A stretch of 64,000 nucleotides of DNA from Antedon mediterranea. Taxonomy: Eukaryota > Echinodermata > Crinoidea > Comatulida > Antedonidae. The stretch spans positions 30,342,912 to 30,406,911 of the forward strand of contig NC_092675.1 of the NCBI RefSeq assembly GCF_964355755.1, read 5' to 3'. Below, one piece after another: positions 22,401 to 64,000 of the stretch (its first letter is position 1; each line of letters starts with the position of its first letter). The notes under the pieces are model-generated. The model did not search any database. It saw nothing but the letters and a program-made list of their open reading frames with translations, and was not told the DNA's origin. A program made the position numbers and the translations under genes.

Positions 22401-25400
22401 AACAACAAATATTACACGGGTATTCCCAATAGATGATTAAGTGTTGTGAGATAACAACACATAAATCTGCAATAGGATTGACCGCAGTAGGATTGACTGC
22501 AGTAGGGTTGACCGCAGTAGGATTGACTGCAGTAGGATTGACAGCAGCAGGATTGACCACAGCAGGGTTGACCGCAGTAGGATTGACAGCAGTAGGATTG
22601 ACTGCAGTAGGATTGACCGCAGTAGAATCGACCGCAGAATTCTCACTTGAGTTATGTGATGTCAAGTACTGTAGCGTTCACAATAAATGAATAAAAATGA
22701 CAGAATTCTGTAGCGATTAATGTTATTTTATGTAGAGTACAACGAATGAATAAAAAAGACAGAATTCTGTAGCGATTAATGTTATTTTATGTAGAGTACA
22801 ACGAATGAATAAAAAGGACAGAATTCTGTAGCGATTAATGTTATTTTATGTAGAGTACAACAAATGAATAAAAAAGACAGAATTCTGTAGCGATTAATGT
22901 TATTTTATGTAGAGTACAACAAATGAATAAAAAAGACAGAATTCTGTAGCAATTAATGTTATTTTATGTAGAGTACAACGAATGAATAAAAAAGACAGAA
23001 TTCTGTAGCGATTAATGTTATTTTATGTAGAGTACAACGAATGAATAAAAAGGACAGAATTCTGTAGCGATTAATGTTATTTTATGTAGAGTACAACGAA
23101 TGAATAAAAAAGACAGAATTCTGTAGCGATTAATGTTATTTTATGTAGAGTACAACGAATGAATAAAAAGGACAGAATTCTGTAAGCGATTAATGTTATT
23201 TTATGTAGAGTACAACGAATGAATAAAAAATACAAAATTCTATAGCGATTAATTGATAGATTCAGATCAATAGTTTCTTGCCAAGTTTCACTCTGCAACT
23301 GGTCATATAACAAGCTTCCGGCAGAAAGGCGACAATTCTAACTAAAGAGCTCATCACAAGAAGAAAGTTAATTGAAGGGGTCAGTGGCAAAGGGAAGGGT
23401 AAAGATAAATAGGATTATATCATCTTTTTGATCATTACTGTCTGTCACAAATATTTCCCTTCAAAGTAGTGATAATAGAAAATGTTAGTGTGTAGTTCAC
23501 ATTTCAACTGAACATTTTTAATAAAAGGATTCAATATTACCATTTCTGGATGTTGCGATGGCAGTTGTATTATCTAGCTGTGGTTGTAGCTTTGGTATCT
23601 TCTTCCTTGTCTCACCGTTCTTGAGGAATAACGTACTGGCTCGCTGCCCATCAAGTACAAACACATCTTCACACTAGAAAGAAAACACAACTTTTAATAA
23701 ACTTACTAGTATTTCAAAAGATATTGTATGTGCATTTTTAAGTCTGATTTTATTATTGTAGTTTATCACATTATTATTATGTGAAGGCATCAAACTTTGC
23801 TGATTTGTAAACTTTTTCAATTGCATCAGCGACCTCTTCACATTGTTGCGAAAATGTAGCACTGAAACTAAGCGGTAGGTAATGATCATGAAAAACAATG
23901 ATCAAACACTGAATTTGAAGAATGTATTTTTAGAATCATCATTCTAATCAAGTTAAGGATGGGAACCAAATTTCCAATCTTTCACTTTTTTCTATTGATA
24001 TCTTCAAACAGTTGCTGAAAACCCATCTCTTTCGCATAGCATATGAAATGACGTAATTTCCACCTAGTTTGAGCCTTGTGGACGTAGCACTTTAGAGAAA
24101 ATTTATTTTGGTAAGCGCTATACAAAAGACAATTATTAATTATTATTGTTATTATATGAAAATACAGATTTTAATAAAATAACATTTATATAATTACTTA
24201 AGTAATTTCAGATTAACTAAGCTTAGCACAAATTAAAGAACATAAAATTTACTAATTATGAGAGCAGTGGTCACAAATGAAAGTTGAACTTCAAGACCAA
24301 ACAATGGCAATAGAGCACAAACACACAGGATATTAAAAGCGAAATATGTAATTTATTATAATAGAAGAACAGAATTAGACATTGAACAACTGAGAACAAG
24401 AATTCAATTCTTATCTACGCACTTCACAAATATTTTAAACTTTTTTATGATTTACAATATGAAAAATGTTAATCAGCATTACGAAGCATTATATTGATTA
24501 TTAAGTCATAATTATGTCTAATATTAAGTATTAACTTGGGACATAATGTTCCTCCTTCTCAATCACAAAACAAACTTACGATCAACTCATGCAATGACTA
24601 AATTACCTTCTGTGTAAATTCATATCCCAGAGGTTTAAGGTTATTGTATTTCCTGCAAGTACCATAGGGGTAGAAATGTACCCGTCGTCTACAAAGGGTT
24701 AAGAACCCTTGTGCTAAATAAGTTTGCTTAATATTTGTATTATATGCTTAAATTTAAAGACACAACACACAGACACGCACAACACATAAGTATGTATGGA
24801 AGTCAATAATAACATACTGTACTTGATAAATATTGAATCCTGACAAACCATCATACTTTAGTACCCCCGGTGTGTATTTCGACACTTAGCATATGTCCAC
24901 ATACATTCATTTAGGGGCCTTTTATTCTATACTCCCTTTCACATTGACTCGCAACATTTCAGAGGGTGCACACACCTGGATGTCAACACCAGTGTTTGTT
25001 TGGTGTGAATTGAACAACTTTGGAGTTGAATGAACCCAACTCTTCAAACTCCGGAAACGGACACACACCAGAGAGTATACACCATTGACACTTCATTAGG
25101 TCAATTTTTACTCTAAACATGTTCATTAGGAGCTCACCCTCGGCAAAAAATTTATTTTTTAAATGGATAAAAGATATCTATATAGAAATAACATGGCCAA
25201 ATTACAAGAACTGAGAATAAGACAAAGTTGGAGAAAGAGGCTAGCACCACTGACAGGCAAAAGCCTACATAGGAGGAGGAGCTGAAATGAAATGAATGAA
25301 TTTATCATCCATAGTGACACTTTGGAAGTACGGTAACTTTTTTTTTATTGATGTTAATGAATTGAACAGAATTGATGTGAATGATGGCATCTTTCCAGCT

Positions 25401-31555: not shown

Positions 31556-32081
31556 ATTTAAGCAACAAACTGTTGCATCAGATCAAGAGATATTAGATAG
31601 AATATGATTGAATCTGAACACACCTATGAAATGTTTTTCACGATTAAAAAAAAAATGTATATTGAACTCAGCCCTGAGCCTGATATATTGTTGTTTACAA
31701 TTTGTAAAATTTATATAGGGATATTTTTAATCAGAGAACATAAAAAAAAATTAAATAATAATTTTACTAATTTTAAAATAACAATTTTACTAGATGTTTC
31801 TTCTAAATCATGATTTACTTAATCAAACTTTTTCATTAATTGGTAGACTTCCTGTAAACAAGTTTACTCTTGACCTTTTGAGTCTGGTTGTTATGGTAAC
31901 TATAAGTCAAGAATAGACGTAAGCTTTCGAGGCAAAAACTTACCTGCTATGCTGTCTACTTGGACTCCAGAGGGCTCTCTTTAATGATAACTAATGAATA
32001 ATGAAACTAATCACAATTTAAAAAGTCAAATTGTAAGATAATATATTTATATCATCCTCTATGAAATTGGTTAAATAGACA

Positions 32082-32572
32082 TGTGACATCGTATCATGTT
32101 CTAAGGCATGGTGTGACATCGAATCGTGTCCTAAAGGCATGTGACATCGTATTGTGTTCTAAGGCATGGTGTGACATCGTATCGTGTCCTAAGGCATGTG
32201 ACATCGTATTGTGTTCTAAGGCATGGTGTGACATCGTATCATGTCCTAAGGCATGTGACATCGTATTGTGTTCTAAGGCATGGTGTGACATCGTATCATG
32301 TCCTAAGGCATGTGACATCATATTGTGTTCTAAGGCATGGTGTGACATCGTATCATGTCCTAAGGCATGTGACATCGTATTGTGTTCTAAGGCATGGTGT
32401 GACATCGTATCATGTCCTAAGGCATGTGACATCGTATTGTGTTCTAAGGCATGGTGTGACATCGTATCACGTTCTAAGGCATGGTGTGACATCGTATCGT
32501 GTCCTAAGGCATGTGACATCGTATCACGTTCTAAGGCATGTGGCATCGTATTGTGTTCTAAGGCATGTGAAT
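32082..32572 (+). repeat. 57-bp VNTR of alternating 27/30-bp subunits
   Basis: GTGACATCGTATTGTGTTCT/AAGGCATG alternates with GTGACATCGTATCATGTCCT/AAGGCATG for about nine periods. The 57-bp period keeps frames open on both strands (up to 165 codons); coding is not supported. Confidence 0.92.
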
Positions 32573-36144: not shown

Positions 36145-39100
36145 ATGAGACGATTCTATATCCTATTGACAGTAGGAGCACTATGTACGTGTTTCACGTT
36201 TTACTACATTAACAGATACGGAAAGCAATTAGGTTCACCAGTACCAGTTAAAGCAAATCTACGGCAAGAAAACAAACAAAAAATTCAAAAATTGGAAGGC
36301 ATTGATAAATATGTAACAATTGATCAGGAAGAGGTACGGTAAATTGTAAACAGACATTTTTGTTTTGTTTGTCCTTTTCATAAATTGCACCATCGCCAGA
36401 CTTCTTCCACGATCCTAGTGATAATAATAATAATTATCGTTTTAATATATTTCTTGTTTTAGATGTTTGCATTAAGATGTAACAAATGTGCTATCATTTC
36501 TAATTCTGGACGACTTTTGAAAACAGGAGCAGGACGTGAAATTGATGAAACCGAATGTGTGATACGAATGAACACGTCACCAACCAAAGGTTTTGAACAA
36601 GATGTCGGTTCAAAGACTACCATCCGGGTTATTGGACACGCCAACCTGAAGAAACTACAATCCATGCCCGCCATTTTAGAGGAATTTTTTAGAGTTCCAA
36701 AAACAAAAACGAAACACTTAATCGTGGCATGGTTATACATGACACATGTGAATAAAACTTCAAATCCTCATTATAAAGCAACACGAATATTATCAAAGAT
36801 GTATCCTAGTATATCTTTTTATGTTCCTACATTGGAGTCAATGCAAAAGGCTGAGCTTATATTTAAAAAAGAAACAGGTATAACAAGGTAAGTTTCAATA
36901 ATACACCTTTTATTTATTTTGTATGAACCAGAGATTCCGACATTGTGTAAACACAAAAGTAACAGGTCTAAAATATGAATGTAATATTTATGAATAAAAA
37001 GAAACACAATAAAAATAAAATTGTTTTAAATTAAATTTATTAAAATGATTTTATATTATGAATTGTTAGTGTTTTCTTTATAATCCAGTATGATTTATTT
37101 TTTAAATGAATTTCTTGAAAAACTGTCTGTCAGTTCCGTTTTCGGAGATTTTAGAATACGAATAGATTAATTATTATACAAAACCAAAGCCTGTTTCGTA
37201 CTTAGTCAACGGATACAGACACGTCAATACATTACGGTATAAATGCGTTTAAGACATAACATCGGCTTAATGGTCCGTCGTAAACAGGTCATACTCTGTG
37301 GAAAAAGCATTTGTCGCTCCATGAATTATTAGTGTAATGTAAATGCATGATTTTCTTTAACCTAAACTATCGGGTTCTCGTATCTACCGTTAGGCCTATA
37401 TATGGAATTCCATTTATAAATGATGTAATACCTACAAATAATACTAACGAAAAGACGTTGTTAATGCACGTTCAACACCGAATGCAAAGATTGTAAGTAA
37501 GTAAGATTGCGTCACATTCACATAAACATACAAATTATACTATTTGTGTAGTTCTTCCACATACTATCTATTTCCGAAGTCTCATAGGAATATTTTGTAC
37601 AGCATCTCATTTATATCACATGTGGTGCCTGTATCATGTAAGGTTAGGTTAAGGGTTAGCCTACTACTATAGATACATGAAACTAAGCTACGCTAAGCTT
37701 GCCCACAAAATTTAATTGCAACTAGCTAGGCCCATGGGAGAGCGTAACCTGTATGTGATAGCCTATATGATGGCGTTTGTACGGTAGCTACCAGATTCAG
37801 ATTCAGAAACACATGGGATGTTGTATTACCAAAAATTCCTACGATACCTCGGAAACGGATACAGCACCGAGAATCAGCTGCTATTTCAATTAATCTGATA
37901 GGGCCTATGTATGAACAGGTCTTATAATACACGTAATGACAATAAAACTCGTTTAGCTGTATGTCTACATCATGTTGCAATGGTCAAGAGATTGCAAACA
38001 AATAGCACGAAATATTACACACGTGCAGTAACTTCTCTTAATCGTGTTCATTTACGAGCATCATTATTGTCACACACTTTCGAACTTACAAGGAATCGAC
38101 AGAAAGAAATCACTGTATGGTATACTTTGATTTATACAATTGGACTTGTTCACTGCATACATTGGGAATTACCTATAGTTAAACAAAAAACAGCATCTAG
38201 GTAATAGTATTCTTTACTCCATGGTAATAGCATCAAATATAAAAAACATATATACTGTACGTTACTCTTAATCATGTCCATTTATTATTGTATGTATGCA
38301 CAAATGATTTTGCATCAAAACGCAAAAAAAACTTGACAGTGAAATAAAATCATGATTTATACAATCCGACTTGTCTATCTTAACTGATTGAGAATTCGCC
38401 TAAGGTAAAACGATTAAACATTTTTAGAAAAACAGTTTATGAAATCTAAACATATTTCAAATTGCATAAGCACGTACTTTGATTCATTTTATTAAAAATC
38501 TATAAATGTTGATTTATCCAGTTTAAAAATATGAATTTGCTCATAAAATGTATTCACATTTCTTCTTTTTCATGCATTTAGGAAGAATGCAAAGACGTGG
38601 TTTACGACAGGATGGTTAACGATGCTACTGGCTATTGCAACATGCAAGAACATCGCTGTCTATGGAATGTTAGAACACCATCATTGTCAGTGCGTATTGC
38701 TATTACAGTTTTTAATATCATTATTTATTCGGTCTATTTCAATATATACATAAAAAATGAAATTGGGGAGACCAAGGTCAACCTAAGTGACCTTAATCAC
38801 TGTAGCTGAGCCGGTTGGCCCAACCACAAAGTCAGTTTACACATAAAAGACACAGAATACAGTTAAAGCGAATCAAAATTAAATTTTATAAATCATAAGA
38901 ATAATTGAAGATTTATATAATAATAGTAATAATAGTTAATTCTTATATAGCGCATATAAGCAAGCTCTCAATGCGCTGTACATAAATTAAAAAAGACGAG
39001 AAGTGGCAATAATCTAAATTAATGAAAAACTTGTTTGAAAAGGAAAGTCTTCAATGTCTTGAAAGAGTTCAAGTATATGGTGATGAAAGGCGTAGCCTGT

Positions 39101-53229: not shown

Positions 53230-55749
53230 CTACATGAAATTAGCAGTTAACAGTTTCTTAAAAAGAGAGACAGAGTTCACATTTTTAATATCTTCATGTA
53301 GCTCATTCCAAACCTTGGCACCTCTATATGATAAGCTACGTTTTTTGTAGTTTGTGTTTGGTTTTGGTACAATTAAATTTGGCTTAGTTCTAATATCATA
53401 GTAATTGTTTTTGATATTGAACTTATTTAATAAATATGGAGGTGCAAGGTTATTCATAATCTTAAACATAACAATAGCTTCATTTATATATAATCTTTCA
53501 TCTAAGTTCATCCAATTTAGACTTTGTAGAGCTTGAGTACTAGAGTCGGTTTGAGATTTGTTTGTAATAACTTTTGCTGCGCGATTTTGAAGAACTTGTA
53601 GTGTTTTACTTTGAGTTATATTTGAACGTCCCCAAACAACATGGCAATACTCAAGATGAGGAGCCATAAGTGATTTGTATAGTTTGCATTGAATTTCTTT
53701 TGGAAATATATTATTAGTCTTTTTTAAGTAGTACAAGCTCTGCAAAACCTTAGATTTAACATTATCGATTTGTGAGCACCAAGAAAGATTATTATCTAAT
53801 ATCACACCAAGGTGTTTACATTTATTTACACGAGAGATTGGTTCTCCATCTATGTTAATGTTGACTTGTAAGTCAGATAGTTTACTTAACCTCTGACTCG
53901 TTCCAATTAACATAAATTCAGTTTTTTTAACATTTAGGCTAAGTTTGTTGCATATGAGCCATCTTTTAAGACACAATAAGTCAGAATTTATTGTTTCAGT
54001 AAGGTTATTAATATTATTGGAAGTGTAGTATATGGCAGTGTCATCAGCATACATAGAAACAGAGCATTTATTTACAGCATTAGGCAAGTCATTAACATAA
54101 AGGAGAAACATTAATGGTCCAAGGATGGACCCCTGAGGAATTCCACATATACTGTGACTTTCATCAGAAGAATCACCATTTACATTGGTTATATGTACAC
54201 GATTTTGCAGGTAGTTTTCAAACCACTGAATAACATTTGAATGAAAATTGAAAGATCTTAGTTTATTGATAAGAATACTGTGATTTACTGTATCAAAAGC
54301 CTTTTTCAAGTCTATCATTACTAACCCAATATAATTTCCTTTGTCAATGGCTTCTAGCCAGGTCTCTGTGATATTAAGCAATGCAGTCGTAGTTGAGTAG
54401 CCTGGTCTAAACCCAGACTGATTTTCATATAGCATTTTGTTTAGATTTAGGAAATCATAAACTTGTTCAAATACAACTTTTTCAAGAACTTTAGATAATA
54501 TTGGGAGAATTGAAATTGGCCTATAATTATTACATTCATTTTTATTTCCACCTTTATGAAGAGGGCAGATCTTGGCCCTTTTCCATTGTTTTGGAAAAGT
54601 TAAATTTTTTAAAGATAAATTAATTATATATGTTATTGGGTAAACAATTTCGTCAATAGCGATTTTTAGAAGATTAGCTGGTATTTCATCAGTTCCAGTT
54701 GCTTTTTTTGATGAAAGTGAGTTAAGAATTTTATGTATGTCTTGTTTATTAACATATTTAAAAGTTAATTTGTCGTTAGTATTATTTAAATCATTAGTAA
54801 AGTTAGAAAGTTGATTAGTAGATTGAATACTTTGAGCTAATGTTGGACCCACATTGGCAAAATATTTATTTAATACATTTGCAATATCTTTAGAATTAGT
54901 TACTTCATCATTTTCTTCATCATTTGTGGTTTTAATACTTGTTATATTCATGCTTTTAGTTTTGCCAGGAATAATTAATTTAATATTTTCCCATATCTTT
55001 TTCTGATCTTTAGTATTGAGTTGTTCAGAAAAATAGTTCTTCTTACTTTTTCGAAGTTCATAATTTACTTGATTTCTTAATTTTCTATATTCAGGCCAAA
55101 GCTGAAGCCTATTTTTCTTATTTATTCGTCTTTTTAATGCATCTCTTTTTCTGATGAGAAGTATTACATTTTTAGTTAGCCATGGACTGTTTTTTTGGCG
55201 AACTCTTTTACGTTTAATGGGTGCATTTTTATTTGCAATATTAAGAAAGGTTTTTTGAAAGAAATCAACAGCATCATCAACATCAGTATAATTCTTAATT
55301 TCAGCCCAATTTGTATTAAGTAAGTCAGTTTTAAATTTATTTTCATCAAAATGTTTATAGTTCCTATTTGTTTTAAATCTATGGTTACTTTTCTCTTTGT
55401 ATGCTTTTCCAAATTTGATGTAGATAGCGGAGTGGTCACTAAGACCAGTATGAAGTACACCACTGTTAGTTATTTTTTCTGGCGATGAAACATAAATATG
55501 ATCAATTAAAGTACTAGAGTGATCTGTAATTCGCGTAGCTTCAGAAATTAATTGTGTTAAGTGATAGTTATTTGTTAATTCTTTTAATTTTAAAGTATAG
55601 TAAGATGGAGTTGATGATAGAAGGTCACAGTTTATGTCCCCAATTAAAATAATTTCATTATCAGTATTATCTCTTTCAATTTGTTTAAGAATTTTTTTCA
55701 AATTCATCAAATGTATCAGTACATGAATTAGGTGGGCGATACCATGCAA
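53230..55749 (-). CDS. LINE ORF2: endonuclease C-terminal part and reverse transcriptase
   Basis: An 839-codon open frame. The first ~20 codons are out of frame with the endonuclease; real homology starts near KILKQIE. Endonuclease motifs: IGDIN (36-40) and LSDHSA (103-108). RT motifs: NNYRPISILPILSKVLE (407-423), NQSGFRPGYSTTTAL (443-457), motif A IDLKKAFDT (479-487), motif B GIPQGSILGP (536-545) and catalytic YADD (567-570). A CR1/Jockey-like tail follows (PHLEYCHVVWG). The RT core is uninterrupted, suggesting recent activity. A one-base frameshift separates it from the endonuclease N-terminus at the T7 run 55692-55698. Confidence 0.92.
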   Translation of the reverse strand: MHGIAHLIHVLIHLMNLKKILKQIERDNTDNEIILIGDINCDLLSSTPSYYTLKLKELTNNYHLTQLISEATRITDHSSTLIDHIYVSSPEKITNSGVLHTGLSDHSAIYIKFGKAYKEKSNHRFKTNRNYKHFDENKFKTDLLNTNWAEIKNYTDVDDAVDFFQKTFLNIANKNAPIKRKRVRQKNSPWLTKNVILLIRKRDALKRRINKKNRLQLWPEYRKLRNQVNYELRKSKKNYFSEQLNTKDQKKIWENIKLIIPGKTKSMNITSIKTTNDEENDEVTNSKDIANVLNKYFANVGPTLAQSIQSTNQLSNFTNDLNNTNDKLTFKYVNKQDIHKILNSLSSKKATGTDEIPANLLKIAIDEIVYPITYIINLSLKNLTFPKQWKRAKICPLHKGGNKNECNNYRPISILPILSKVLEKVVFEQVYDFLNLNKMLYENQSGFRPGYSTTTALLNITETWLEAIDKGNYIGLVMIDLKKAFDTVNHSILINKLRSFNFHSNVIQWFENYLQNRVHITNVNGDSSDESHSICGIPQGSILGPLMFLLYVNDLPNAVNKCSVSMYADDTAIYYTSNNINNLTETINSDLLCLKRWLICNKLSLNVKKTEFMLIGTSQRLSKLSDLQVNINIDGEPISRVNKCKHLGVILDNNLSWCSQIDNVKSKVLQSLYYLKKTNNIFPKEIQCKLYKSLMAPHLEYCHVVWGRSNITQSKTLQVLQNRAAKVITNKSQTDSSTQALQSLNWMNLDERLYINEAIVMFKIMNNLAPPYLLNKFNIKNNYYDIRTKPNLIVPKPNTNYKKRSLSYRGAKVWNELHEDIKNVNSVSLFKKLLTANFM

Positions 55750-56200
55750 TAATTAAAATAGGTTTTCTCTTCGGTTTAGTTAATTTGATAACAATTGCTT
55801 CAAGATTAGGACTCATTAAATTTTCTAAAATTTCATAATTAAAAGAACAGTTTTGACTTATATATACTGCTACACCCCCTCCTTCTCGGTTTCTATCCTT
55901 TCTAACAACATTAAAACCATTAATCTTAATTTCATTGTCGCTTATAGTATTATCAAGACGTGTTTCATTTAAAGCTACAATGTCAACATTGTTATTTTCC
56001 ATTAAGTATTTGATTTCATCAAATTTTCCAGGGAGGGTAACGATGTTTAAACCTAAAATATTAAGCCCTTTTCCATTAAATACATTACCAATATCTGTAA
56101 GCAAATTATCCTTAACAGAGTCAATTTCATTTTCTGAGTTGATTGTAGAAGAGTTCGTATCGTTTGTATTATCTGTGGCATTCTCTTCATCGCCTACTTT
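55685..56200 (-). pseudogene. LINE ORF2 N-terminal segment: APE-type endonuclease, frameshifted
   Basis: Encodes the apurinic-like endonuclease N-terminus: GLNILGLNIVTL, then VDIVALNETRLD (catalytic Glu in the NET block), REGGGVAVYI and IIAWYRPPNS. The frame ends in the homopolymer at 55692-55698, where a single-base length change separates it from the rest of ORF2. The frame is open upstream to 56200 with no ATG, and it directly follows the in-frame TGA that ends ORF1 (56201-56203). Confidence 0.85.
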
Positions 56201-56612
56201 TCAGTTTCTGTTGAATTTCATATCACAGTATTTTGATTTGTGTCCTGGTGTGTTACAGTCCCAGCAGACAATAGAATGGCCATGTCGACAAACTCTTCCA
56301 TTGTGTCCAGTTTCCCCACAGAAGTGGCATCGTCGGGATTTTGCTCCTTGATGAACATAAGAACTATCAGTGACTCTACGTGTTGGCAGTATTTCAATTT
56401 GCTTGTTGATGCTTTTTAGAAGAGCAGCAGTGCCTAGTTGGTTTAGATGGAGACCGTGTTGTGTAAATTTTCTTGTGTCATACTTACTTCCCATGATAAA
56501 AGCATTTGAGTTGTCAATATATTTTCCTTCAAACGTTGATTTCAGAACTTTGTTTACCTCATAGACTCTGTTGTCAAAGATATATCTATCGAAACGAGGA
56601 CAGAGAATTCCT
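56201..56612 (-). CDS. LINE ORF1 C-terminal fragment: esterase-like tail and two zinc knuckles
   Basis: Reading from the right, PRFDRYIFDNRVYEVNKVL leads into HGLHLNQLGTAALL, which resembles the final His block of the SGNH-esterase domain found in ORF1 of CR1-type LINEs. Two zinc knuckles follow: CHFCGETGHNGRVC and CWDCNTPGHKSKYC. It ends in TGA. The open frame extends right of 56612, but that part is translated from unrelated repeat DNA, including the GC-rich hAT terminus, so ORF1 is 5'-truncated. Confidence 0.7.
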
Positions 56613-56722
56613 ATCGGCGGCGCCAGGCTGCGTGGATGTGTGTGCGCTGCAGATGAGAGTTTTATTTTTATTCCAAATGGCCTATTTAGGCCTATATTTT
56701 TTAGTAAACTTTGTTTACAATG

Positions 56723-58604
56723 CAGTGGTGGCGCCAGCGGGGGGGCTACGGGGGCGCTAGCCCCCTCGTCGGGGAGCCTAGCCCCCCCGTCGGGGAACAC
56801 GGGTACTTTTTGTCGGGGAATATATATACAGTAAAAAACGTTCGCGTTCACTTCATATAGCTTCAGCGTCTAGAAAACCACGACGTTTCATTGACCGTAA
56901 GAGTACGTCAGAGGGCTATTATGCACTTTTATGCATTCATTATTGCCAGAGATCTAACTACTAAACAATAGCTAGTACGCACTTGTTTGGCGGTATCCCT
57001 TTGTACGAATCGTTCACCGTTGGGTCGAGACGCGTGATATCATGTTCCATCCAGGGACCAAAATGTGTAATGTAGTTATTTTCCAGGCGAAGTTTACCGA
57101 CGGTTACCGAAGGGAACACGGGTACTTTTTGTCGGGGAATATAATATACAGTAAAAAACGTTCGCGTTCACTTGGTAGCTTCAGCGCCTAGAAAACCGCG
57201 ACGTCTGATTGACCGTGAGAGTACGTCAGAGTGCTATTATGCAATTTATATGCATTCATTATTGCCAGCGATCTAACTTGCTACTAAACATTAGCTAGGT
57301 ACGCACTTGTCTGGCGGTATCCCTTTGTACGAATCGTTCAACGTTGGGTCGAGACGGGTGATATCAAGTTCCATCCAGGGTATGTGTAATGTAGTTATTT
57401 TCCAGGCGAAGTTTACCGACGGTTCGGGTACTTTTTGTCGGGGAATATAATTCGTTCGCGTTCACTTCGTAGCTTCAGCGCCTAGAAAACCTCGACGTTT
57501 CATTGACCGTGAGAGTACGTCAGAGTGATATTATGCACTTTATATGCATTCATTATTGCCAGCGATCTAACTTACTACTAAACAATAGCTATAGGTACGC
57601 ACTTGTCTGGCGGTATCCCTTTGTACGAATCGTTCAACGTTGGGTCGTGATATCATGTTCCATCCAGGGACCAAAATGTGTACTGTAGTTATTTTCCAGG
57701 CGAAGTTTACCGACGGTTACGTCGTGTACTGTGTCGACGTACGCTACACTACAGCAAAAACGAATTATGTTAATTGTTCGTATGTTCACCAATTTTTTAA
57801 TTTACAAGTAACCTTCTGTACCGTGGGGCACCTAAAATAAATATTTCATCCATTACTAAACAAAAAAACATGCCATTTTCGCTTAGCCAACATCTTATTA
57901 TAGCTAAGTTATTAAATTTTCAATGTCCTGTATTATGTCATGAATTTCTCACCACTCGGAAGTTCAGATGGTACGCAGGCATACTCTTGGAATAAACTTA
58001 TTTCCCCGACTGAAAAGGTCTACGCTTGCGTTTTTTAAGCCTCTGGGCCTGATGTTTCCAAAGTATAAAATGCAATTTTTTGAAGACCTGCAGCTCTAGT
58101 TTTAAACATTTTCTTAGCTCAGCCCCAACAATAAAGCTGGTCATATTTCGAAGTACAAGAAGTGCATTTTCCGGGACCTAACATCTCTATTTTTCAAACA
58201 GTTCTTAGCTCAGTCACAACCATGATAGGGACTTATATATTTTGTTTCATGTTTTGAAGTATAATAAGTCCAATTTCCAGGACCTCCAACTCTATTTTTC
58301 TAAATTTTCTTTGAACTTTTATTTTTGAAATTGAAAAATATGGATTGAAACAGTCATCGCGCACCGTTTTTTTGCACGCAGTATTTTATTTATGCATTAT
58401 AAAAAATGGAAAAAAATGGCTACCCTAAATCTGATTAAAATGACCTCAAATGACGCTAGAAAGCGTTGCTTGCGGGGGCTTCGCCCCCTGGACCCCCACC
58501 GGGGGCCCTTGGCGGCCCCCTGGCCTCCAGCCTTGTGATGCTCGCATAGCCCCCTCGTCGGGGAATGTAGCCCCCGCGTCGGGAAGATCCTGGCGCCACC
58601 CCTG
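56723..58604. mobile_element. hAT-like non-autonomous DNA transposon with 8-bp target duplication
   Basis: Flanked by perfect 8-bp direct repeats TTACAATG at 56715-56722 and 58605-58612. Terminal inverted repeats begin CAGTGGTGGCGCCAG on the left and end CTGGCGCCACCCCTG on the right, followed inward by GC-rich GGGGGCTA blocks on both sides. The 8-bp duplication and CAG...CTG ends are hAT-superfamily hallmarks. No transposase frame is present. The interior is three tandem ~300-bp units, then about 700 bp of AT-rich sequence with three degenerate ~105-bp units at 58050-58310. Confidence 0.85.
56797..57716 (+). repeat. Three tandem ~300-bp units inside the hAT-like element
   Basis: Units start at 56797, 57117 and 57425 with CGGGTACTTTTTGTCGGGG (320, 308 and ~292 bp). 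Each repeats the blocks CGTTCGCGTTCACTT, CATTGACCGT(A/G)AGAGTACG and GGCGGTATCCCTTTGTACGA in order. They are highly similar, with small indels. Confidence 0.9.
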
Positions 58605-60739: not shown

Positions 60740-63700
60740 TTATTGAACACTTTCATAAATATCACATGATTCAGCAGCGCAGACGTTTGCCATTTCATAA
60801 CACAGCTCGTAATGTTTCTGTGGAAAAACAACAAATTAGTATAATTTTCATATTGATAAAAAAAAATAGATAAAGCATGCACTCGGACTATCTACAGTAT
60901 ATGTTTTTATGACTGTAGCATCATACAATTAAACGTTACCCTTGTGTCAAACAACGATGAAGAAACGCGTTTGATACGTTTCACTGTGTGGTAGACATCA
61001 ACCAACGCGTCTCCATTCATCTTACGAACGATTATGTCCGCTGCACAGAAAAATCCACTTCGACTCTCGTCCCTAGAGTAACAAGATAAAACACCAATAG
61101 TATTTCATATTGATATTGTTTACAAATATTAACTATAAGAATCGCGATTGACTTATTGCCAACTTTGCAATCACATTATGTTGTTCTTTTTTGGAATTCT
61201 TCCTTCGTTCATTGTACCGTTCATTGTGTCTATACTGGATGAAAATGAATCTATTTTGAATCGAATACTTACAAAGAGCAAACTGTAACATAGTCATCTC
61301 GATTATTAGTTTGTTGAAATTCTCTGACATCGTCACAGAATTGTATAAAGTATCCAAGTGAAGGTTTCTGTGATTCTTTAGGCCAGTCCAGAAATGTCAG
61401 GTGACATATCTCACGTGATCTTTCCTTGTCCTAAGTATTAAATGTGCAGTAGTTTTATTTCACGATAGAAAAGCTTTGAAACTGTTATTTTATTTTAGAT
61501 AATTACTTCAAATAATTTTTATAATGTTCTTACCTTAGTCAATTTTAGTGTTCGTTTAAAAACATAATCGGTCTTCTCAAAGGTCAGAACTTCAACTGTG
61601 AATTGACCTTGTGTCATCTTACGTTCAGGAACAAGTGTAGAAGCAATTACCTTAAAAAACAACATGATTATCCTTTCTTTACTATATTAAATTAATGTGT
61701 AGTGATAACGTTGCCTCTTTCGTATATTTTCTTTGAAAAGAAACTGTTGACTGTACAATAATGTGTAATCATGATTCAAGTATAAATAATGTTTAGCAAT
61801 CTGTACAAAAAAAACTACGAAGATCGAATTCTGGAAATCACGGCGTGAATGACCAAAGCGTTAGGCTTTTTATTGCAAAAAGATCTTTTTATCTCTCTTC
61901 TCTTGTTATAAATATTTGTATAATAATGATCAACACATTTCCATGCCATTGTGCATAACATGATCAATATACATTAAATAGTCTACCTTACCTTGTCAAC
62001 CTGCTCTTCGTCATCTAACATCACCACTGTATATGACTTGTAGTCATAGATCATCTGCCAGAAATTGGAAAATTCACGTAGCATTGATTCCCTTGGCACA
62101 AGATATTCACGTTGCGGCTAAAATAAAGATTACAATACTATGATCACATAATAAATCCATAGGACATAAAGAAGCTTAATCTAAGAAATCATTGTACAGT
62201 TACCAAAAAAAGGTTGAGGTTGTATATAGTTTTACTCTAGATTTCACAAAATAGTTGGCGCTAGCAAATCTGACCTTGGTACTCTTCGTATTGGAATATA
62301 CAACATCTTCTGACTCCACATCAATCAATAGAGGTTCTGCAACATTCACTATTAGATAAAAAAATCAATTTAAGACAAAGTATTACAGCTTTCTTAAATA
62401 ACACCAATTAGAGAATTTAGTCTATAGTTCCATTTAACACTTACATTGCAATGTGTTATCGTTTTGTGTTTTGTTTGGTAGAAGAGCTTCAATGTTCTGT
62501 AAAACATTATAATACATGGATAATGAATTACACTATGCATTCAGTATTTAAAGTACAATAAAAGTAAACATAAAAAAAAAACGTTTTCCCCAATTAAAGT
62601 TGATGTGATCAATCATGGTTTTAATACATTCAAGATTAATAATAATAATAATAGAACAATAGGTTTATGTCACCATACATTTATCTGTTCTTGAATAACT
62701 GGTCTTCCAAGTAAACTTGTTGTGTTTTTAATTGCCTTGTATCGTTCAGAAATATCGGTTGATGGTATGCATGTTGCTCCACAAAACAAACACTCCAAAA
62801 TCATCTCATAGATAAATACATACTGGTTCTGAAAAACAGCAACAAAAAACATTGACGTGCAACTATTTACGCAAATAAACACTTTAAAACTGTTGTGAAA
62901 ATGGAACATACCTCTTTCAAACGAATATGAGAACAGCTACTAAGTGTATCTTTGACAAAGTTGAAAACATCAATCTCACTGCTTTCTTCAGCCATATCTA
63001 GCATTGCGTTTACTGCGATGACAGTTCCAATTTTGTGACAATCGGTACTTTGTAACAGATAATAAATAGTTGATACCGGTAAATGTCGACCACAATATTA
63101 CAAATTAATCGACTCATTACATTGCCTTATTCCAACGAATATAGTTTAATGTATTCATACAGAGAAATAATGCAAAGCAAATTATTTTGTAATACCTATA
63201 CACAAGTATTGGTCCAACTCCAGAGTCTTTCTTAGCTTTCCTTAAACTGTGTGTAAACTCAATAAGATGTGCAGATGTGTCCATAACATCTCCAGGCCAT
63301 GCAATGAAGTTATATTGATGGACAACACGAGGCCGCGATTCACGATTTTCCTGCGTAAAGAAGAAGGTATAGTCATTGCCCCATCACATTTGGATAGCAA
63401 CATTAAGGTATATCTAATTTAATAGCTAAACAACATTTTAACACACCTAAATGAATCCTTGCCACTTGATTGGTTAATTTTGTATCACATGCTTTTCACT
63501 ATTTATATTATGTTAATGGATAACGTTCATCCTTTTGTACACTTTTTTCTGGATAACTTTTTACATTTTTGTATTCGCTGAATATTATAGGGGAAATGGG
63601 TTCAGTAGTTGACATCCTGATAGTCCTATTCAACTCATAAAAACATTCTCTCCATTAAACACATTTATTACTTATATAATAGATTACTTCATTATAAACA

Positions 63701-63845
63701 AGATATTTGTTACCGTCATAATTTCGAACTTGCAGACTGTAAAACCATTGTCATTTAATTCCGCTTCCAGTTTGCGGACATGCATCTTGCCATGTTGTGT
63801 TATTATACATCCAGTATTTTCATGCAAAAGTAGATTACAGTTGAC
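60740..63845 (-). CDS. Receptor-type protein tyrosine phosphatase, 3' part with tandem degenerate phosphatase domains
   Basis: Eleven minus-strand exons: 63714-63845, 63196-63350, 62912-63047, 62679-62828, 62445-62496, 62275-62348, 61992-62117, 61534-61650, 61273-61430, 60940-61072 and 60740-60817. They join in phase to 436 residues plus stop. Domain 1 is recognisable from FIAWPGD (W62-D65), GPILVY, AVNAMLDMAEESSEIDVFNF and NQYVFIYEMILECLFCGAT. Domain 2 is recognisable from FWQMIYDYKSYTVVMLDDEE, LDWPKES, VCSLDESRSGFF and the KHYELCYEMA end. The layout matches RPTP tandem cytoplasmic domains (mu/kappa/T/alpha group). In domain 1 the expected HCX5R loop reads YSTDCHKIGT and the WPD Asp is Gly. 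In domain 2 the Cys and Arg of CX5R are present (C365, R371), but His is Val and WPD is WPK. The 5' part, including membrane and extracellular regions, lies beyond the right edge. An AATAAA overlaps the stop codon. Confidence 0.85.
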
Positions 63846-64000
63846 CTTTGAGGTGAGAAAAGTATTTAAAAAATTAAAAATGAGTAAATCCTTTGTCCTT
63901 TGTAATATTTTGTACAGCCAACAACTGGTCTTCCAAATCAAACGAATTCATACTTTGAAATGGCTTTAACATAGTGTACTCATGTGTAGTCCATATAGGT

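Follow-up and report, generated by a model that had tools for sequence, protein, structure and literature searches.

Can a receptor tyrosine phosphatase (RPTP) be maintained as a full-length receptor after its membrane-proximal phosphatase domain has lost the catalytic residues? This question is raised by the last 11 exons of such a gene (gene A), which lie on the minus strand at positions 60740-63845 of the window, i.e., the whole stretch of 64,000 nucleotides that was analyzed (C6:30342912-30406911, in a genome of 354 Mb in 18 contigs). The intact reading frame claimed by an earlier sequence-only reading of this DNA was recovered by splice-site modelling, in which all GT/AG sites of the 11 exons were present and the frame remained open to a TAA stop (Table 1). 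Gene A runs past the window; its roughly 28 exons, between C6:30403651 and about 30415913, encode 1422 residues with zero stops. The models of A and of the related genes B, C, and D described below are computational, and genes E and F were modelled in their PTP parts alone. The model of A includes filler segments of 2 and 6 bases; the first of them, just inside the membrane, could be replaced by a small exon that keeps the frame, and this stretch is provisional.

The predicted protein starts with a signal peptide, followed by an N-terminal domain (about 140 residues, no Pfam match), one Ig domain, four EGF-like domains, four FN3 domains, a transmembrane segment, and two phosphatase domains (D1 and D2). 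Pfam backs the FN3, Ig, EGF, and PTP assignments, several of them weakly, and the EGF and FN3 counts as well as the transmembrane segment were determined by eye. With two PF00102 domains after this single transmembrane segment, gene A has the tandem-domain RPTP layout. PF00102 matched the 449-aa C-terminal model of A with an E value of 2e-46 (best stretch in D2) and D1 alone (307 aa, including exons beyond the window) with 5.8e-23 (82 bits); for comparison, the solved D1-D2 chain of RPTP-alpha gave 3e-39.

Table 1. Positions of the modelled parts of gene A (window coordinates) and of its relatives in the same cluster (C6 coordinates)
Feature	Position	Strand	Basis
Intron; N-terminal D1, transmembrane segment, ectodomain, and signal peptide lie beyond the window in L001, to about C6:30415913	63846-64000	-	
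Mid-D1 exon (VNCNLLLHENTG...KFEIMT), first inside the window	63714-63845	-	splice model
D1 exon containing WPG (about 63291-63299), 3' end ...GPILVY-AG	63196-63350	-	splice model, junction comparison
D1 exon, starts T-ACC-GAT-TGT-CAC-AAA-ATT-GGA (second half of loop, STDCHKIGT; Arg replaced)	62912-63047	-	
C-terminal D1 exon (NQYVFIYEMILECLFCG...)	62679-62828	-	splice model
Linker exon between D1 and D2	62445-62496	-	splice model
First D2 exon, without KNRY	62236-62348	-	splice model
D2 exon (PQREYLVPRESML...FWQMIYDY)	61992-62117	-	splice model
D2 exon	61534-61650	-	splice model
D2 exon, WPK for WPD, ends VCSL	61273-61430	-	splice model
D2 exon DESRSGFFCA..., CX5R is CSLDESR	60940-61072	-	splice model
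Final exon and TAA, C-terminus CDIYESVQ	60740-60817	-	splice model
Gene B	about C6:30418586-30430217	-	A-protein match
Gene C	about C6:30464670-30476132 or further	-	A-protein match
Gene D, PTP part	C6:30457-30462 kb	+	A-protein match
Gene E (L005), PTP part	C6 30483-30487 kb (region C6:30482800-30489800)		
Gene F (L006), PTP part	C6 30507-30511 kb (region C6:30506500-30513500)		

Several other features were observed in the window, including a GT29 sialyltransferase exon at 36463-36888 (PF00777, E 1.2e-21), a LINE-like element at 53230-56869 with a reverse transcriptase (PF00078) and weak endonuclease matches, and tandem arrays at 22686-23253 (period 59), 32080-32567 (57), and 56793-57721 (294 bases).

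The D1 lesions reported by the sequence-only reading were all found again. The Asp of the WPD motif is gone (WPG), the loop is one residue short (VYSTDCHKIGT vs VHCSAGVGRTGT, spanning exons 63196-63350 and 62912-63047), and both the catalytic Cys and the loop Arg are absent, the Cys codon being missing and the Arg replaced. The loop is interrupted by an intron (HC-S|AG) whose position is common to relatives in this genome, and the exon before it ends with CAYTGYAR in 37 of 41 distinct genes or regions (exactly CAYTGCAG in 33), the 41 junctions coming from 45 regions; in the remaining four regions, the intron is lacking at this place or the model is odd. The exon end is different in A, in its two paralogs B and C, and in a locus on another chromosome (L027). 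In A, this exon ends with GTGTATAG (TATAG|gt vs CAYTGCAG|gt), and the 24 bases 3' of the intron have the same length as in the others and align gap-free; with the exon end changed and no length change after the intron, the residue lost must be the Cys codon. The D2 domain has WPK for WPD and retains the Cys and Arg of CX5R (CSLDESRSG). Between the membrane and the middle of D1, an IKNRYANIL reading was found in D (the splice sites of this reading are unchecked), and A, B, and C have one NRY/NRF reading each over the same stretch, none of which resembles that of D. Thus, A lacks the CX5R of D1 and the WPD Asp in either domain, and no KNRY pTyr loop was found in it; with the D1 motifs lost and WPK in D2, both PTP domains are predicted to be inactive. 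An assembly or sequencing error was considered as a source of the lesion and is unlikely, as the lesion is common to three separate genes.

Comparison of the A protein with the genome revealed B and C as close paralogs, both of which lie on the strand of A. The loop of B is identical to that of A (VYSTDCHKIGT), and in C (VYSTDCQRTGT) the Cys codon is gone and the Arg is kept. The CX5R of D2 (CSLDESR) is kept in A and C; in B, its Cys has changed to Phe and the start of D2 is irregular. Gene C has no recognisable FN2 exons and an uncertain signal exon. In addition, the intron of C that follows the last D1 exon and precedes the linker is about 1.5 kb long (182 bases in A and 244 in B) and contains an open frame that by eye resembles a LINE reverse-transcriptase fragment. 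A paralogous copy of the active type (a search for an active copy had been proposed) is represented by gene D, 30-60 kb off, in which WPD and HCSAGVGRTG are present along with the IKNRY reading. In two further neighbours, E and F, the motifs are WVD and HCSDGVGRTG, the latter an IA-2-type loop with Ala changed to Asp, and their D1 is likely to be inactive too.

The ectodomain of D has the same architecture as that of A. The N-terminal ectodomain unit occurs in seven copies in the cluster, i.e., in A, B, C, and D, in two more that were given to E and F by position alone, and at C6:30439017. The unit of A is 67% identical to that of D, 61% to B, and 55% to C, and its Ig domain is 79% identical to that of D. 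The copy at C6:30439017 belongs to an ectodomain (N-domain, Ig, EGF, and FN3) that adjoins the D ectodomain upstream; no transmembrane or PTP exons were found in its region (C6:30438400-30446000), and it could be either a gene of its own or a portion of D, as its 5' part or as a doubling of its ectodomain. Related N-domain/Ig/EGF ectodomains, with N-domains 35-39% identical, were also observed at C3:13143171-13232334, where no PF00102 domain was present among the matches listed, nor were kinase-linked ectodomains among the matches listed for PF07714 (133 of 772 candidates scored).

A phylogenetic tree was built with FastTree from 87 PTP columns of 36 of the 45 sequences (nine partial or odd models were dropped before alignment, and loop columns were cut), with local support values and midpoint rooting. 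A, B, and C were joined with support of 1.0, a clade holding them without D, E, and F had 0.84, and the node linking them to their nearest neighbours had only 0.30. The placement apart from D, obtained from so few columns and with a long A/B/C branch, is weak. Because the tree keeps the two apart, D is considered as an intact-type neighbour rather than a proven sister; its ectodomain is similar, yet the closest PTP relative of A/B/C may be another gene. Furthermore, B and C form a pair in the tree (0.83), but D1 identity is highest between A and B (79% vs 71 and 69%), and this disagreement makes the order of Arg loss uncertain. In the ancestor of A/B/C, the D1 Cys codon would already have been lost, probably together with the KNRY segment, and the loop Arg, which is still in C, was probably lost later. 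A single loss in this ancestor should be the parsimonious explanation, and gene conversion could also have spread the lesion.

Since the Cys loss is common to all three genes, their divergence should post-date it, and substitutions among them would record selection on a D1 without Cys. Purifying selection, for which an orthologue comparison had been suggested, was examined among paralogs in this one genome, and the 95% intervals of D1 dN/dS were below 1 in all three pairs: 0.39 for A-B (0.26-0.61), 0.54 for A-C (0.37-0.75), and 0.57 for B-C (0.38-0.85), as calculated by NG86 with codon bootstrap, a simple estimator whose values assume no gene conversion. These are similar to the values of D2 (A-B 0.40, A-C 0.51, and B-C 0.44) and of the ectodomain (0.44, 0.47, and 0.45, respectively, those with C including a badly modelled FN2 stretch). 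Lower values were obtained for intact-loop pairs (L021-L022, 0.13 over 87 codons; L021-L023, 0.26 over 95 codons) and for D1 of D-E (0.29, E itself having the Asp loop), implying that constraint on the D1 of A/B/C is partly relaxed; E and F are too close to judge (D1 0.38, 0-1.4; D2 0.91, 0.49-1.84). The dead D1 thus seems to be constrained, though less than intact D1s. Moreover, in the four exons compared (three of D1 and the linker), A is 87-96% identical to B and 83-91% to C; in the three introns, the corresponding figures are 69-91% and 51-66% (shuffled baseline 49%).

The loss of D1 and D2 motifs in A/B/C can be read directly from their sequences, and profile scores and constraint suggest that the PTP fold is retained. 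The explanation that we prefer, with a probability of about 0.5, is that A, B, and C are maintained full-length non-catalytic receptors that partner intact-type neighbours such as D. Receptor A would bind a related ligand via its D-like ectodomain, its D1 and D2 surfaces would serve as a scaffold for substrate docking or hetero-oligomers, and it would thereby dampen or redirect dephosphorylation. Because the phosphate cradle is destroyed, docking at the surface is more likely than a trapping of pTyr in the pocket.

The main rival is that these proteins are pure ectodomain decoys, in which selection acts on the ligand-binding part and the intracellular part serves just as a membrane anchor. An intact ectodomain common to D and, by position, also to E and F would fit this explanation, as would the eroded motifs of D1 and D2. 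It appears weakened by the dN/dS of D1 and D2, which is about as low as that of the ectodomain, and by the stop-free models, whereas a mere anchor could freely truncate; on this evidence it is somewhat unlikely.

Another explanation, which we regard as improbable, is that A/B/C are decaying pseudogenes that have not yet acquired stops. It would be consistent with their D1 dN/dS of 0.39-0.57 (vs 0.13-0.29 in the comparison pairs), with the absence of the D2 Cys in B and of recognisable FN2 exons in C, and with the LINE-like insert in the intron of C. Against it, all three D1 intervals exclude 1. When neutral drift was simulated with 0.15 changes per site, the 1422 codons of A acquired 23.5 stops on average (12-36) and its 566 intracellular codons 8.9 (3-20); at 0.05, the expectation was 8.6 (3-17) for the whole of A, and 3.3 (0-8) for the intracellular part, the last of which is compatible with a young loss of constraint. 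In contrast, no stops were found in the models of A, B, and C, which were produced by an aligner that penalises stops and thus favours open paths; the first model of C had two stops in a forced FN2 stretch, which vanished when FN2 was left out of the query. The earlier suggestion of a maintained pseudophosphatase rather than a decayed gene is supported by dN/dS and stop-free models, and this support rests on paralogs.

Residual catalysis, by the CSLDESR of D2 or by the new Cys in the D1 loop, is very unlikely. The Cys and Arg of D2 are retained in A and C, and D2 was nevertheless rejected as the active domain in view of WPK, the lack of KNRY, and the Phe at the Cys position in B; the shifted-register Cys of STDCHKIGT was rejected as a nucleophile as it has no Arg at +6. 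That an unseen exon or alternative splicing restores HCX5R is hardly credible, since neither CX5R nor HC can be read in any of the three frames of the loop introns of A, B, and C (148, 133, and 85 bases, respectively), in agreement with the earlier statement on the intron of A.

The loop was also read in 40 regions chosen among the PF00102 matches listed (gene E included), a sample biased towards well-preserved domains and drawn from D1, D2, and single-domain genes alike. An intact CX5R was present in 38 of the 40, and in 40 of 45 once A, B, C, D, and F were added. One of the two exceptions, L009 (C6:7174500-7175350), has HCSAGVGSTG, with Ser in place of the loop Arg, and its PTP domain is ordinary in other respects. 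The other is L027 (C5:25201500-25202400, within the wider locus L027/L049 at C5:25197000-25206000), whose loop is HSSGG-GRSG. Its exon before the loop intron ends with GTACACAG, the sisters L022 and L023 end with CAYTGCAG, and there is no length change after the intron. L027 joins L022 and L023 in the tree (0.89), i.e., in a different RPTP clade, implying that the same D1 Cys codon was lost a second time, independently. The dN/dS of L027 was 0.21 against L022 (0.09-0.46, 91 codons) and 0.32 against L023 (0.13-0.71, 99 codons), and part of this divergence may pre-date its Cys loss. In genome searches with paralog queries, 104 of 104 and 106 of 106 candidates were scored, and loops were read in some of them. 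Two RPTP-type loci, L052 (C5:7686000-7695500) and L053 (C5:7965500-7973500), have a tail exon followed by a D2-like domain, and no D1 could be recognised in between. Tyrosine motifs are frequent in their tails (SEYKNI, SEYTNI, and PVYIEP), some of which we take to be ITIM-like.

A broader proposal, which is tentative and less likely than not, is that, in an expanded RPTP family, enzymes are being converted gene by gene and convergently into paired receptors without catalytic activity, intact and dead members having ectodomains in common. The routes would include loss of the Cys codon (A/B/C and L027), Ala-to-Asp (E and F) and Arg-to-Ser (L009) changes, and the apparent disappearance of an entire D1 from genes that still have tyrosine-rich tails (L052 and L053). 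The independent repeat of codon loss raises the question of whether loss of catalysis was repeatedly selected. The cluster also provides a series for a non-enzymatic role of RPTPs, from D (intact) through E and F (substituted) and C (Cys-less) to A and B (without Cys and Arg), in which A/B/C would allow a non-enzymatic job to be tested free of a Cys-redox explanation.

Several inactive receptor phosphatases are available for comparison. The ectodomain of PTPRU-type R2B receptors is MAM-Ig-FN3, and that of A differs from it in consisting of N-domain, Ig, EGF, and FN3, with no Pfam match to MAM up to an E value of 0.1. In PMC7320164, human PTPRU, which has changes in the WPD (WPE) and the pTyr loop of D1, is presented as the one RPTP whose two PTP domains are both dead; it binds substrates of related phosphatases, and competition with active relatives was proposed. 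A resembles PTPRU in being a receptor with both PTP domains non-catalytic (predicted in A). The catalytic Cys of PTPRU is retained and can form a disulphide on oxidation. In contrast, A/B/C have no Cys codon in D1 and no KNRY was found in them, and A and B also lack the loop Arg; without a Cys, a PTPRU-style disulphide is inapplicable to these D1 domains.

IA-2 and IA-2beta have a single PTP domain in which Cys and Arg are kept. The Asp at Cys+2 is the point of likeness with the neighbours E and F, and not with A/B/C, which differ in having lost the Cys residue altogether. According to PMC2661844, IA-2 and IA-2beta (PTPRN and PTPRN2) are inactive receptor PTPs with a loop Ala-to-Asp change, and a back mutation was reported to restore activity. 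Changes of WPD in RPTPs of invertebrate deuterostomes are already in print, as the accessible portion of PMC5336234 lists WVD/WTD in sea urchin, WPQ/WSV in Ciona, and WPI in acorn worm among R3 RPTPs. E and F likewise have WVD; R3 RPTPs differ in having an FN3 ectodomain and one PTP domain, and no loss of the Cys codon is reported for them in the same portion (PMC5336234). Similarly, no report of a Cys-codon-deleted D1 was found in the open-licence literature searched, which is not proof of absence.

In classical RPTPs, the dead fold of D2 is kept as a docking or regulatory module (PMC7320164 and PMC9464862). A shares with them a dead PTP fold and differs in that its membrane-proximal D1 is predicted to be dead too. 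Finally, activating and inhibitory immune receptor pairs offer a likeness to the proposed arrangement, in which intact and dead members have common ectodomains.
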